DNA of 64,000 bases from Hyphomonadaceae bacterium BL14. Its GTDB lineage: Bacteria; Pseudomonadota; Alphaproteobacteria; Caulobacterales; Maricaulaceae. The position numbers were made by a program, and so were the translations under genes. Shown here piece after piece: positions 51,110 through 57,101 of this stretch (positions are counted from its first letter, which is position 1; every line of letters begins with the position of its first letter). The DNA lies in contig CP091242.1 in the NCBI GenBank assembly GCA_027627705.1, forward strand, positions 608,076 to 672,075, given 5' to 3'. The notes under the pieces were generated by a model that searched no databases, had not been told where the DNA came from, and saw nothing but the letters and a program-made list of their open reading frames with translations.

Positions 51110-52533
51110 CAGCGCACTCCTTCACCAGGTTGGCCAAGCATGAAATCGCGCACCGTGCGCCGCTCGGGATCGGCGCGGTCATACATCAGCGCGCCATCGA
51201 TATAGACATGGTCGGCCAGGGCGTAGCTGGAGAACGGGTGCGCCGACCAGATCACGATATCGGCGCGCTTGCCGCTCTCAATCGAGCCGGTCTCCTCGAA
51301 AATCCCCAGACCCCGTGCCGGCGCTGACGTGAACCAGGCCACCGCCTCGGCGTCGGAAATATCCAGCCCCATGCGACGGCCATCGCCCAGGGCCTTGGCC
51401 ACTTCGTGGTTGAGGCGCTGAATGCCCAGATCGGAATCGGAGTGGATCATCGCGCAGGCACCCAGCGCATGGGTGATCGGCAGGTTCTCAATGATCGAGT
51501 CATACGCCTCCATCTTGAACCCGCCCCAGTCGGCCCACACCGCCGCGCAGGTGCCGGCCTCGGCCAGCAGATCGGGGATTTTGTAGGCCTCCACCGCGTG
51601 GTGGAAGACCGAGACGTGGTAGTCGAACTCTTCGGCCATATCGAGCACCAGCGCCATTTCGTCGGCGCGGTAGCAATGCATCTGGATCAGGATTTCCCCG
51701 TCCAGCACGCCCATCAGCGTGTCCAGCTCCAGATTGCGCGCGGGTGGCGTGGCCGACGCATCATCGGCGTCCCAATAGCGGTTCCAGGCGGCGCGGTATT
51801 CCACCGCGCGCTGCCAGGCTTCGCGGTATCCCGCCATATTGCCCATGCGCGAGGCCGGGGCGCGGCCCTGATTGCCGTAGACCCGCTTGGGGTTCTCGCC
51901 GCAGGCCATTTTCAGCGTGTAGGGAGCGTCGGGAAACTTCATCGCCTGGACGCTGCGCGCAGGCACATTGCGCAAGGTCACGCCGCGGCCGCCGAACAGA
52001 TTGGCCGAGCCCGGCAGCACGTGCAGCGTGGTCACGCCGGCGGCGAGCGCCGTGTCAAAGCCCGGGTCCTGCGGCCAGACGCCATGCTCGGCCCACACCT
52101 CCGCTGTCACCGGGGCGGTGGCTTCATTGCCGTCGGAATGGGCGTTGACCGAGGGGCTGGCATAGACACCGAGATGGGAGTGGATGTCCACCACGCCCGG
52201 CGTCACGAAGCGGCCTTCAGCCTCGACGATTTCAGCGCCGTCGGGGGCGGCGAGGCCCTGGCCGATGGCGGCGATGCGCCCGTTCTCGATCAGGATGTCG
52301 GTGTTTTCCAGCAGCTGATCGACGCCGTCGAACACGTTCGCGCCGCGGATCAGCGTCACGCCGGACGGGGCCGGCTGATAGGTGGAGGGGTAGGGGTCAG
52401 GATTGAACCGCACCAGCTCGCCGGCACCGCCATTGGCGTCCCCGCCATTGGCCTCATCCCCGGCACCATTGCACCCGGTCAGGGCTGCCAGCGCCAAAGC
52501 GCCAGCCCCCACACTGCTCCAGAATAGTCTCAT
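51109..52533 (-). CDS. Lipoprotein amidohydrolase
   Basis: A 474-residue exported lipoprotein (lipobox LTGC near residue 21) of the amidohydrolase superfamily. The metal site looks complete: DIHSH (HxH), a candidate carbamylated Lys in TLKMACGENP, His in MHCYRADE and FHHAVEAYK, and Asp in IHSDSDLG. The Gly/Asn/Asp-rich segment after the lipobox is a flexible tether. It is probably a partner of the degenerate paralogue encoded downstream. The substrate is unknown; peptide-like or imide compounds are typical for relatives. Confidence 0.87.
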   Translation of the reverse strand: MRLFWSSVGAGALALAALTGCNGAGDEANGGDANGGAGELVRFNPDPYPSTYQPAPSGVTLIRGANVFDGVDQLLENTDILIENGRIAAIGQGLAAPDGAEIVEAEGRFVTPGVVDIHSHLGVYASPSVNAHSDGNEATAPVTAEVWAEHGVWPQDPGFDTALAAGVTTLHVLPGSANLFGGRGVTLRNVPARSVQAMKFPDAPYTLKMACGENPKRVYGNQGRAPASRMGNMAGYREAWQRAVEYRAAWNRYWDADDASATPPARNLELDTLMGVLDGEILIQMHCYRADEMALVLDMAEEFDYHVSVFHHAVEAYKIPDLLAEAGTCAAVWADWGGFKMEAYDSIIENLPITHALGACAMIHSDSDLGIQRLNHEVAKALGDGRRMGLDISDAEAVAWFTSAPARGLGIFEETGSIESGKRADIVIWSAHPFSSYALADHVYIDGALMYDRADPERRTVRDFMLGQPGEGVR

Positions 52534-52764
52534 CTGATCCCTCCCGCGATCCGTCCGGGTTCAGCGCTCCCCGCGCCGACTCCCTGTCGTCTGTCGGATA
52601 TCGGCTCAGCCTCACGGAAACCGGCAGGCGAGGGAAGGGGTTATTGTGTAACGATGGCAGGGGGAGGAAAGTGGGCAAGCGGGCCTGCTTCAGCCACCAG
52701 CATTTACGAAACGCCTGCACGAAAGTCGGCGCCCATGGCTGGCTGAAGGCGGCGTTGGCCCGGG

Positions 52765-53856
52765 TCAATGTGTAGTGTTTAAGGGCGCGCCCTCGACATA
52801 GATCGCGGTACCATCACCCGCAGAGTCCATCCGAACCCACGTCAGGTCCGCCGTCTCTGTATTCAACAGGAGCGGCCGGGTGTGGCCTGGCGTGAAGGCG
52901 CCTGACCAGCTGACGCGCCGCCGACCGAACCCGTCCGTCTGACGTACTTCGAGGCGCCACCGATCACTGCCGTCGGAACCGGCTGAGTCAGGCGGGTCCA
53001 GATGCGTCGCCACGCGCACCGTGCAGCCCTCAATCGGTTCTATCACATAGCCAGCCTCGTTCGCTTCGAGGGTCAGTTCGACGACGTAGGCGTCAAATAT
53101 GTAAAGCCGCCGTTCGCCGAGCGAGGCGCAATAGCGCCGGTTCTGGGCGAAATCGAAGAACGGTTTGGCGTGCGGGGCGCCACACGGGCGCTCCGGGTGT
53201 GGCACATTGGTCTGGGTGACGGAGAAGAGCGGCGTGCGGCCGAGATCGATGAGATGCCCGCCCAGCAAGGCGGTGCGCCCACCCTCACGCCGGTCCATAC
53301 CGCGCGCGCCATGACCGTGGCCGACATGAAGAAAAGCCAGAACCGGCGGCTCGGCGCCCACGATGACATCGGACACATTCTCTGCGGCAAACCGGTCGCG
53401 CGCATTCATGAAGGTGGGTGCCAGACCCCGGGCGTGCAGGGCGCCTTCAGACAGGCCTCCATCCTGAGTCTGTATGTCATAGGCGAAAGGCCGGGCGTGA
53501 AGCTGTGCGGCCACGAAGAGCAGATCGTTAAAATGGGGCCGGTTGACGTAGGGTCCGTCCAGCGTCCACGCGCCGTCGGCGCCGGGATGGATCAGGCCCC
53601 GGCCAATCAGCGTCTCGGCTCCGAAATGAGTAACTCTGGCCTGGCGTCCGACCGCTTCCAGCAAGCACGCCGACACATAGCGCGTGTAAGGGTCCGGGTG
53701 AGACTCATTCATGATCACCACAAGCGGATCAGCGGCCAGTATCTCGTCTGCGAGCTGGTCGATCAGGGGCCGCGCGCCTACCGGCTCAGCCGGCTCGCCA
53801 TCACGCCCGCACGCCGCCAGCATCGCGCACGCGATCCAGCAGCCGATTTTTCGCAT
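52765..53856 (-). CDS. Lipoprotein with an EreA/ChaN-like N-terminal domain
   Basis: A 363-residue putative lipoprotein (MRKIGCWIACAMLAACG). The N-terminal half has a Glu-x-His pair (VIMNESHPDPYTR) followed by VTHFGAET and a HVGHGHG motif, a pattern reminiscent of the EreA/ChaN haem-binding and esterase superfamily. The C-terminal half is beta-rich. The function is unknown. Its start region overlaps by 56 bases the 3' end of the decayed ATP-grasp gene. Start 53856 gives a clean lipoprotein signal; 53868 is possible. Confidence 0.65.
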   Translation of the reverse strand: MRKIGCWIACAMLAACGRDGEPAEPVGARPLIDQLADEILAADPLVVIMNESHPDPYTRYVSACLLEAVGRQARVTHFGAETLIGRGLIHPGADGAWTLDGPYVNRPHFNDLLFVAAQLHARPFAYDIQTQDGGLSEGALHARGLAPTFMNARDRFAAENVSDVIVGAEPPVLAFLHVGHGHGARGMDRREGGRTALLGGHLIDLGRTPLFSVTQTNVPHPERPCGAPHAKPFFDFAQNRRYCASLGERRLYIFDAYVVELTLEANEAGYVIEPIEGCTVRVATHLDPPDSAGSDGSDRWRLEVRQTDGFGRRRVSWSGAFTPGHTRPLLLNTETADLTWVRMDSAGDGTAIYVEGAPLNTTH

Positions 53857-54775
53857 CGGTGATAGCATTGGCGAATAATTGCTCCCAATTGCAGCCCGCC
53901 CAGGCCGAATACCCAAACCATTGTCCTTCAGGGTTGCACTCCAAGAATACATAATCCCCAATAGGCGTCTTAATGAAATCAAATATTCCAATGTCGAGAT
54001 TAGCTTTTGTTATAAATTTTCAACACTTTTCATGAATACGTGTTGGCATTTGATATGGTTCATATGTTAAATTAAACTGATCCCTTCTCCAATCAAATGA
54101 TCCAAATTTACTATCTTGAAAGTTAATTTTTATCGCACGCGATTCATTCCTAGATAAAATCACCCTGAGCTCGAATTCTTTCTCAATATACTTTTGGTAA
54201 ATTGAAGGCACTTGCCTGACCTTATCAGCGGCCCCATTCAAGAAATCAAGATTAAGTCGCTCAGTCATTCCTGCGGATCCGGGATAATGTCGATCCCCAA
54301 TCACCTTGTATGCAATGCCCTGCCCTAGGAGTTGCAATTTTGAAGCATCGGTACCAAAAATTGTTGGAGGAACTATAAAGCCGACGTCTTGAGCCAATTT
54401 AGTTTGGTAAATTTTATATAATGTCTTCACGCTTTCAAAAGGTGAATTAAATATGTGGGAATGGGTAAATATTTCTGATATCGGATTTATAAGTGATTTC
54501 CATCCGTCATTTCGAAATTCCGTGGATGCGAAATCTTCATTTATTTTATTTTTTCTATTTACAACTTTCGATTTTATTCTCTTCCATATATCGGTCGGTA
54601 TGCTGGTATCAATGGGCGTTCCGGCAATCGAGAGTTATGAATTGTTTGATTCTGAAAAAATGGACACGAGAGGGCAGTCAAAATGATTTACAACCACCAC
54701 TTCTGAAAAATCAAGAAGCGGTAGAGTGCTCGAGATATGATAATCTTCGGGTTGTCCGAAAACGATTAAGTTCAC
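53801..54775 (-). pseudogene. ATP-grasp ligase of graspetide (omega-ester RiPP) type, broken by two stops
   Basis: A single minus-strand frame runs for 324 codons from GTG 54775 to TGA 53803-53801, the normal length of these enzymes. It starts VNLIVFGQPEDYHISS, has the central ATP-grasp region (KLAQDVGFIVPPTIFGTD, AYKVIGDRHYPG, SRAIKINFQ) and ends with the metal/ATP motif YVFLECNPEGQWFGYSAW, the signature of microviridin/plesiocin-type ester- or amide-forming ligases. TAA at 54637-54635 and TGA at 54022-54020 interrupt it in the same frame. The gene is much more AT-rich than its surroundings, consistent with transfer. Its last 56 bases overlap the next gene. Confidence 0.8.
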
Positions 54776-54781
54776 GGGAGT

Positions 54782-54809
54782 GGCCCCGAACGAGTTTGGA
54801 TTCGGGGCC
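54782..54809 (-). other. Hairpin between the RiPP precursor and the ATP-grasp gene
   Basis: A perfect 9-bp stem (GGCCCCGAA with TTCGGGGCC on the plus strand) with a 10-base loop lies between the precursor stop and the ligase GTG. There is no U-tract in the minus direction. Such hairpins often set the ratio between an abundant precursor and its enzyme. Confidence 0.6.
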
Positions 54810-54817
54810 GCTTTCAT

Positions 54818-55005
54818 TTAATCAATCTTAAAGTCGTCCATGTCGTACGTGGATGTACCGTCCGGATTGTCGGTCACCCAATCGCGTGCGCAAATGAAGA
54901 TGCGATCATCAGCGCCCGCAACAGATTCAATTTCTTCCGGGGTGAGGATGCGACCGAGGCTTTCGCTTTTGAAGAGGGCCGCTAGGGGGTCGAGGGGCTA
55001 GACAT
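54818..55005 (-). pseudogene. Candidate graspetide precursor peptide, frameshifted
   Basis: From ATG 55005 (GGAG 6 bases upstream) the frame gives MSSPSTP and stops. Adding one C to the five-C run near 54983 joins it to LAALFKSESLGRIL, TPEEIESVAGADDRIF, ICARDWVTDNPDG and finally TSTYDMDDFKID, a 62-residue peptide. A leader with an LTPEE...VAG stretch and a short C-terminal core combining Thr/Ser acceptors with Asp donors fits an ATP-grasp side-chain-crosslinked peptide. The microviridin leader motif PFFARFLE is absent, so it would be a different group. The peptide lies directly before the ligase gene. Confidence 0.6.
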
Positions 55006-55017
55006 GCGTTTCTCCAT

Positions 55018-55454
55018 GGCTGCTCGCAGCAAAGTGCTGCACCGAAACCTTACCACTCACGGTTCGACATGCAACACTAGAAACGCCACTCAGGGGATTT
55101 CGATGAAAATGTGGACGTTAAGTTGGTTGCGCAGCAGTTGCATTCATCGTGTAGGTCCTGACGGCAACTCTCTCACCCACATAAGAAAATGGGGCCCAAC
55201 GGCTGCTAATCCCATGGATCTGGGTGCTTGAAGATCGCCCGTCGCCAAGCGCTTGTTGGGAAGTCTGATTTAGAATGTCGCAATATAGTTGTCTTCTCTG
55301 CCTTGCGCGGCCATCAAGCTCACGGTCGCTGTCGCATGGAATCCGAAGCCATAGAGCTCCTGATCGTGCCCCATGCCACACCCCCACTTGCCCCCGCGCG
55401 CGGTCAGCGCGATGGTCGCGCCCTGGCTGAATCATCTGACCGAGGACGCATTCC
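55018..55454. other. 437-bp stretch without a recognised gene
   Basis: Between the decayed precursor and the TPP enzyme gene. Several short frames exist on both strands but none has a convincing start, ribosome site or family pattern. A minus-strand frame near 55270-55375 (beginning MGHDQELYGFGFH) was considered and left unassigned. The region must hold the promoters of the precursor and of the TPP enzyme gene. Confidence 0.4.
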
Positions 55455-57101
55455 ATGGCTCTGCGCACTGGTGCCCAGCATCTCATCGACGCGCTCGCCG
55501 CTCAGGGCGTGGAGCGGATTTTCGGGGTTCCGGGGGAGAGTTATCTGGCCGCGCTGGATGCGCTGGTCGATAGCGGCATTGCCTTCATCACCTGCCGGCA
55601 CGAGGCGGGGGCCGCCAATATGGCCGAAGCGGACGGCAAGCTGACCGGGCGGCCGGGCATCTGCTTTGTTACGCGCGGGCCGGGGGCGACGCAGGCGGCG
55701 GTCGGGGTGCACACGGCGTTTCAGGATTCCACCCCCATGCTGCTTCTGGTGGGTCAGGTGCGCCGCGAGGATGAGGGGCGCGAGGCGTTTCAGGAGCTCG
55801 ATTACGCGCAGGCCTTCGCCGGGATCGCCAAGGCGGCGTTCGAAATTCGCGATCCCGCCCGGGTGGGCGAACAGATGATGCGCGCCTACGCGCTGGCCCT
55901 GCACGGCCGGCCCGGCCCGGTGGTAGTGGGCCTGCCCGAGGATATGCTGACTGAAGAAGCCGAGGCGCCGGCGCCGCGCGCCTTCACCCGCTCGCTGAAT
56001 GATCTGGGCGCCGATACGGCCAGGACCATCGCCGCGCGCATCGACGCTGCGGAGCGCCCGCTGATCCTCGCCGGGGGCCCTGGCTGGAGTGCGGCGGCGC
56101 GTGCGGCGCTGCACGAATTTGCGGTGCGTTTCAATTGCCCCGTCGCCACAAGTTTCCGCGCCAAACATGTGTTCGACAACACCCATTCCCATTATGCAGG
56201 CGAGGCGGGGATCGGTGTGAACCCGGGCCTGCGCGATGCGCTGCGCGAGGCCGACGTGATCCTCGCCATCGGTCCGCGCCTGGGCGAGATGACCACCCAG
56301 AGCTATGAGCTTTTTGACGTGCCCGGCGGGGTGGGCGACCGCCTGATCCACATCCATCCCGGCGGCGAAGAGCTGGGCCGCGTCTATCATCCCGACATGG
56401 CCGTCACGGCCTCGCCCGGCGCGGCCATGCTCGCCATCGCAGAGGCGGCCACACCGCAAAACGCCGCCCGCCGCGCGGCCTGGGTCGCGGCGCGGCGCGC
56501 TGATTACGAAGCGTGGGTGCAGCCTGTGAGCGTCACCGGTGCGGTCAATCCATCGCAGATCTGGCGCGCCGTGTCGGCCCGTTATGGCGACAGCGCGATC
56601 ATGACCAATGGCGCAGGCAATTTCGCCGCCTGGCTGCACCGGTTTTTTGATCACAGTGCGTATCCCGGTCAGCTGGCGCCCACATCGGGGGCCATGGGCT
56701 ACGGCCTGCCCGCCGCCATCGCCGCCAAGCTGCGCCACCCTGACCGCCCGGTTATCGCCGTGTGCGGAGATGGCGATTTCCTGATGGCCGCGCCCGAGCT
56801 TGCCACCGCCGCCCAGCATGGCGCGAACATCGTGGTGTGTGTGTTTGACAACGGGACCTACGGCACGATCCGCATGCATCAGGAGCGCGCCTATCCCGGC
56901 CGTGTCTCGGGCACGGGCCTGGTCAATCCCGACTTCAAGGCGCTGGCGCAAAGCTTCGGCATGGCCGCCTGGTATGTGACGATGACCGACGATTTCCTGC
57001 CTGCGCTGGAGGCGGCGCTGGCGTCGGGGCGTCCGTCCCTGATCCATGTGCGCCAGTCACCCGAAGACATCGCCCCGGGCAAGAGGCTGAGCGCGCTTTA
57101 G
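55455..57101 (+). CDS. Thiamine pyrophosphate-dependent enzyme (acetolactate synthase-like)
   Basis: A 548-residue TPP enzyme with three domains. The N-terminal domain has the catalytic Glu in CRHEAGAANMAEADGK, then RGPGATQAAVGVHTA; a central Rossmann domain follows (PLILAGGPGWSA); the C-terminal TPP/Mg motif is VCGDGDFLMAAPELATAAQHG...FDNGTYG. It resembles acetolactate synthase large subunits, but no small subunit gene is adjacent, so benzoylformate decarboxylase or glyoxylate carboligase-like roles remain possible. It lies next to the decayed RiPP locus but has normal GC content. Confidence 0.88.
   Translation: MALRTGAQHLIDALAAQGVERIFGVPGESYLAALDALVDSGIAFITCRHEAGAANMAEADGKLTGRPGICFVTRGPGATQAAVGVHTAFQDSTPMLLLVGQVRREDEGREAFQELDYAQAFAGIAKAAFEIRDPARVGEQMMRAYALALHGRPGPVVVGLPEDMLTEEAEAPAPRAFTRSLNDLGADTARTIAARIDAAERPLILAGGPGWSAAARAALHEFAVRFNCPVATSFRAKHVFDNTHSHYAGEAGIGVNPGLRDALREADVILAIGPRLGEMTTQSYELFDVPGGVGDRLIHIHPGGEELGRVYHPDMAVTASPGAAMLAIAEAATPQNAARRAAWVAARRADYEAWVQPVSVTGAVNPSQIWRAVSARYGDSAIMTNGAGNFAAWLHRFFDHSAYPGQLAPTSGAMGYGLPAAIAAKLRHPDRPVIAVCGDGDFLMAAPELATAAQHGANIVVCVFDNGTYGTIRMHQERAYPGRVSGTGLVNPDFKALAQSFGMAAWYVTMTDDFLPALEAALASGRPSLIHVRQSPEDIAPGKRLSAL

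Follow-up and report, generated by a model that had tools for sequence, protein, structure and literature searches.

The locus described here raises the question of what a broken peptide gene cluster contains, where it ends, and whether any part of it is still open. It lies in the window, a stretch of 64,000 nucleotides from Hyphomonadaceae bacterium BL14 (contig CP091242.1, positions 608,076 to 672,075), in which an initial annotation had described a decayed gene pair for a graspetide, a ribosomally synthesised and post-translationally modified peptide (RiPP) of the ATP-grasp type. We conclude with good confidence that the locus is a 2.7-kb graspetide cassette, probably of lateral origin, with a precursor gene, a hairpin, a synthetase (ligase) gene and an overlapping gene for a lipoprotein hydrolase, and that it recently lost its biosynthetic half, the hydrolase frame still being open (Table 1). 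The hydrolase gene, which had been missed, is the more informative part of the locus. As it starts at 53856, inside the ligase gene, the unit does not end at 53801, where its boundary had been drawn.

Table 1 Features of the graspetide cassette (positions in the window)
Feature	Position	Strand	Evidence
Cassette extent	52664..55380	.	Lacking at the corresponding site in relative G012
Open frame of 363 amino acids, probable lipoprotein, predicted EreA/ChaN (Tiki) fold	52765..53856	-	Structure models, alignment
Broken ATP-grasp RiPP ligase (graspetide synthetase type)	53801..54775	-	Homology searches, stop mapping
Hairpin with 10-bp stem between precursor and ligase start	54776..54807	-	Folding -22.8 kcal/mol
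Broken precursor gene	54818..55005	-	ATG 55005 in one frame, leader and core in another

Results

The minus-strand frame 54817-53801 codes for a full-length ATP-grasp RiPP maturase interrupted by two stops, TAA at 54637-54635 and TGA at 54022-54020, at the places given in the initial annotation; each of the other five frames of this stretch has 12 to 30 stops. The motif FLECNPEGQW is present in the part from 54775 to 53801. Possible in-frame starts are GTG 54775 and ATG 54817. The metagenomic homologue P0002, an intact ligase of 327 amino acids (47 % identity over 96 % of the query, E 1.3e-93), aligns from V15 of the window frame onward, and the GTG, also the start assumed earlier, is therefore the likelier one. 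Among 5.8 billion proteins searched, the window ligase had five homologues.

The assignment of the translation, with its stops masked, to the ATP-grasp RiPP ligases was borne out by several searches. Four NCBIfam models matched, namely TIGR04187 (E 5e-31; 108 bits, curated cut-off 350), TIGR04185 (MvdC; E 1.5e-30; 106.5 bits, cut-off 425), TIGR04184 (MvdD; 68.9 bits, cut-off 475) and TIGR04192 (65.6 bits, cut-off 230), and none of the four matches reached its cut-off. A sequence search of the PDB gave AMdnB (7m4s, E 1.1e-20), which the ligase profile A1 matched at 7e-64, together with CdnC and other solved structures. Judged by its sequence, the window ligase is a broken gene of the broad graspetide synthetase class and not a working member. 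The window copy retains each of the 15 columns that are invariant in an alignment of ten relatives, together with 33 of the 35 near-invariant columns (conserved in at least 8 of the ten), and both stops fall at variable columns. For these reasons the gene appears to have lost its function recently. The description of the DNA as AT-rich was correct for the ligase gene, its guanine plus cytosine (GC) content being 41 % compared to 65, 66 and 69 % in three adjoining genes.

Directly upstream, the minus-strand frame 54997-54821 with its stop at 54820-54818 reads PLDPLAALFKSESLGRILTPEEIESVAGADDRIFICARDWVTDNPDGTSTYDMDDFKID, with the leader LTPEEIESVAGA and a core rich in Asp, Thr and Ser. Its stop abuts the in-frame ATG of the ligase. 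This frame opens after an in-frame TAG and has no ATG, GTG or TTG before the leader motif. ATG 55005, with GGAG (55015-55012) six bases upstream, is in another frame than the leader, and that frame ends at a TAG. The break adjoins a short run of C. We also considered programmed frameshifting in the precursor but did not retain it, since the ligase too carries lesions.

A leader profile of 16 columns was built from precursor candidates at 10 other ligase loci, the window being left out. As these candidates had been chosen by eye and by pattern, their own fit to the profile is no test, and the match in the window is the only one. Among 1450 stop-to-stop pieces of the whole window the precursor ranked first (E 0.011, the next piece having E 1.9), in agreement with the earlier placing of a precursor with a Thr/Ser/Asp-rich core at this position. 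Over 29 ligase places (25 in the order, 4 in the class) the profile matched those ten and the window only. No homologue of the window precursor was found by a word-sharing search. The leader PFFARFL was absent from all 11 precursors (window and ten relatives), and PF[IL][FL].K was present in three of the ten relatives. Thus the proposal of a group without the PFFARFL leader held as to the absence of the motif and failed as to novelty, since the available text of PMC8939145 lists 174 graspetide families and describes many with leaders of other types.

The hairpin segment (54830-54770) had a z value of -4.46 at the folding energy given in Table 1, and at 9 of 11 loci the segment 3' of the precursor exceeded at least 197 of 200 shuffles in folding; the segments were chosen by hand, and the one at the second ligase of L012 leads to another gene than the ligase. 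The hairpin may set an excess of precursor over enzyme.

The hydrolase frame is intact and overlaps the 3' end of the ligase by 56 bp. In the metagenomic pair P0002/P0009, overlap and phase fit those of ligase and hydrolase in the window. A lipobox, LAAC, was spotted by eye, and the protein is probably a lipoprotein located outside the cytoplasm. Structure models predict an EreA/ChaN (Tiki) fold. The window hydrolase had no Pfam match at E 1 or better; PF04187 gave weak matches in seven relatives, of which one, L015, passed the cut-off. A PDB sequence search with the hydrolase profile gave nothing meaningful. EreC was listed for the first model and not for the second, which excludes nothing. 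Residues E51, H53, R59, E81 and H182 were invariant in 33 sequences, and the Glu/His residues among them may be equivalent to the Ere active site. The GC content of the gene, 65 %, is close to that of the host genes.

The insertion site was compared in the genus genomes G012, G001, G013 and G009. The flanks of the cassette, which lies between genes for an amidohydrolase and a thiamine-pyrophosphate enzyme by Pfam, are 94 and 91 % identical in G012, where they meet with about 3 bp between them. At this site G001 has 1.1 kb of unrelated DNA that includes a PF03403-matching gene, G013 an AT-rich segment of 0.86 kb whose protein had no Pfam match at E 0.001, and G009 a short gap. Nine further genus genomes with the thiamine-pyrophosphate gene did not show the left flank in the 1.5 kb covered, and they do not enter the comparison. 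Depending on the species, this intergenic site (window 52533-55455; L073, L074, L085) thus holds nothing, a PF03403 gene, an AT-rich gene or a graspetide cassette, and it seems to be a spot that takes up cargo. The cassette was probably acquired laterally. Clear terminal repeats were not found at the ends of the insert, the longest shared repeats being 7 bp (inverted) and 4 bp (direct). Carriage by phages or plasmids was rejected as only distant relatives were found, in 2 phage and 73 plasmid records, all below 60 % identity. A role in anti-phage defence was likewise dropped, PADLOC having matched neither ligase nor hydrolase.

In the order, 398 genomes were scanned with the ligase profile, and 19 of them held a total of 25 places; in the class, 5 of 385 genomes gave a match, one of them being the host genome. 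At most five ligase or four hydrolase candidates were scored per genome, and the counts may be low. Ligases with a leader-sharing precursor upstream were found at 10 other places of the order. The genus has ligases that are intact, and so has the BL14 genome itself. The second ligase of BL14 is open (C1:699397-700362) and has an open precursor (MQTLTRVAQNRNRTLTKEEIDRVAGAN...). This open graspetide pair (L011:9380-10594; C1:699.4-700.6 kb, outside the window) has the leader RTLTKEEIDRVAGA, and by eye transposase-like frames adjoin it. P0002 as query gave no relative in the genome contigs. The alignment A1 was also run against genome contigs, where the best 80 of 526 loci came from diverse phyla. 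Among these best 80 the hydrolase profile A2 had no match within flanks of up to 5 kb, and a weak leader match was found at one locus, L169 (a Sphingomonas).

At 9 of the 25 places of the order the ligase has a hydrolase of the superfamily at a distance of up to about 1.5 kb: the window, both ligases of L012, L014, L015, L056, L057, L058 and L071. A frame resembling a transposase, seen by eye, separates the two genes in the case of the second L012 ligase. The neighbourhood recurs in two hydrolase types. The hydrolase profile matched 55 places in 46 of the 398 genomes, and six of the 55 were within 3 kb of a ligase compared to about 0.008 expected by a rough estimate.

Three of the eight ligase places of the genus are broken, i.e. 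the window, G010:C30 (L014) and G009:C1 (L071); the remnants are of 123 codons in L014 and about 125 codons of frame in L071. An open hydrolase frame lies directly downstream of all three, compared to one of the five others (L015). The association has p 0.07 in the genus and p 0.04 for 24 loci of the order, one locus at a contig edge having been dropped, and retention of the hydrolase beside broken ligases is suggestive only. In the window and in L014 the candidate hydrolase start falls inside the 3' end of the ligase, and this is one plain reason for that end to be kept.

C39 exporters were found near the ligases of L012, L056, L057, L058, L062, L065 and L066. The BL14 genome has a single C39 match, which is far from the cassette and whose frame combines C39 with membrane domains; this protein is a possible exporter in trans. 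It lies at L125:128-2904 (near C1:2066664), where the C39 and ABC membrane-domain protein stands beside a bacteriocin-like peptide with the leader RELSMEEVDAVAGGE. In the same family as BL14, L012:3582-15661 (G017) holds two precursors, two open ligases, HlyD, a C39 ABC exporter, DUF6624 and two Tiki-fold proteins.

Discussion

Several results weigh against the reading of the locus given above. The fold assignment has a single Foldseek match below 0.001, to another Tiki-fold protein, and the structure models are of middling confidence. The leader match of the window precursor is modest (E 0.19 in the larger locus set), and of the 24 other ligase places in the order 14 gave no recognisable precursor. 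At the p values given above the evidence for retention is weak, and G476, a genome from a different family of the class, has a ligase broken by a single TAA on a 7.7-kb contig that lacks a hydrolase of this kind. Moreover, 49 of the 55 hydrolase places have no ligase nearby. By eye, the relatives L028 and L030 (G007 and G003, two species of the genus) stand beside methionine-synthase-like genes. With most places away from ligases and these two beside such genes, the hydrolase family is wider than graspetides, which suggests that part of it has another role.

It may accordingly be asked whether the hydrolase, as an envelope enzyme with a task of its own, has no more than the insert in common with a graspetide unit of ligase and precursor only. 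Besides the 49 distant places, its host-like GC content compared to that of the ligase is in favour of this; however, the overlap is fixed at about 50 % protein divergence and the neighbourhood is repeated in two hydrolase types, and we regard an independent enzyme as rather unlikely, although it is the most probable of the alternatives. The lesions could also be sequencing or assembly errors in a functional cluster, as the precursor frame breaks beside the run of C. Three separate lesions within about 1 kb of a complete single-contig genome, two of them stop codons inside an otherwise open frame, make this improbable. Still less probable is an ATP-grasp enzyme of another pathway, such as a RimK-like modifier, with the upstream frame arising by chance: the graspetide maturase models do score under their curated cut-offs, but four RiPP-maturase models match the window protein and RimK models gave no hit to it at E 1 or better, its relatives of solved structure include AMdnB and CdnC, and 10 other ligases have the leader upstream as well. 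Continued expression by stop-codon readthrough or programmed frameshifting, for which every invariant ligase residue being kept might speak, is hardly credible, as three kinds of lesion (TAA, TGA and a frame change) would require three recoding events and the intact P0002 needs none.

In the intact relatives of the decayed graspetide cassette, the leader would be bound by the synthetase, which in the core would cross-link the side chains of Asp/Glu with those of Thr/Ser (or Lys). Cleavage of the leader behind VAG[AG] and export would then fall to an exporter of the C39 type, and outside the cytoplasm the lipoprotein may act on the product. Self-protection by hydrolysis of the peptide or of its ester rings is our tentative choice for the hydrolase, at somewhat less than an even chance. 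We place it slightly above maturation or trimming, a less probable role, because the protein is predicted to be extracytoplasmic and outlasts the biosynthetic genes; that its function has nothing to do with the peptide is about as probable as maturation. More speculatively, and with considerable doubt on our part, ligase and lipoprotein might form a production and immunity unit, with an extracytoplasmic enzyme of EreA fold opening the ester rings of the graspetide, and the three broken loci among the eight of the genus would then be resistant non-producers.

Resistance roles of neighbouring enzymes have been proposed and not tested in the available text of PMC8939145 and PMC13097080. A unit of overlapping ligase and hydrolase genes, in which the hydrolase outlives the biosynthetic genes, is a concrete candidate for such a role. 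The survey also provides precursors of one leader type and a common hairpin layout for graspetide loci of the order.

Comparison with known systems

By sequence, MvdC/MvdD, AMdnB and CdnC share the ATP-grasp fold family with the window ligase, with identities in the range of 24-30 % among the aligned relatives. The window ligase differs from the microviridin synthetases in scoring below the MvdC and MvdD cut-offs, and its precursor lacks their PFFARFL leader. ChaN and EreC are 10-15 % identical to the window hydrolase, which has an additional beta-rich region at the C-terminus. The double-glycine leaders of C39 systems end, like the graspetide leaders here, in LxxEExxxVAG[AG]; the window precursor differs in its atypical GA cut site and in the lack of an exporter from its cassette.

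In the literature library searched, no paper combined graspetide with pseudogene. The words Alphaproteobacteria and Caulobacter do not occur in the main text of PMC8939145, and in its available text the precursors of branch 4 are largely not predicted. In that of PMC13097080, graspetide groups are numbered up to 43 and DUF6624, a gene for which is also present in L012, is frequent. The closest likeness concerns cluster 575 of branch 4, described in the accessible part of PMC8939145 from two gammaproteobacteria, where a relative of erythromycin esterase occurs with an ATP-grasp protein and a C39 peptidase, and modification or resistance was proposed. Like the cassette in the window, this cluster combines an ATP-grasp ligase, a precursor and a distant erythromycin-esterase relative, the likeness being one of gene content. 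It belongs to another bacterial class, whereas the window has the overlap of ligase and lipoprotein genes, broken biosynthetic genes and a cassette without exporter. As graspetides and a similar hydrolase link are already present in the available text of PMC8939145, the cassette is not new in kind; what it adds to this known kind is a decayed cassette, a fixed overlap and a surviving hydrolase.
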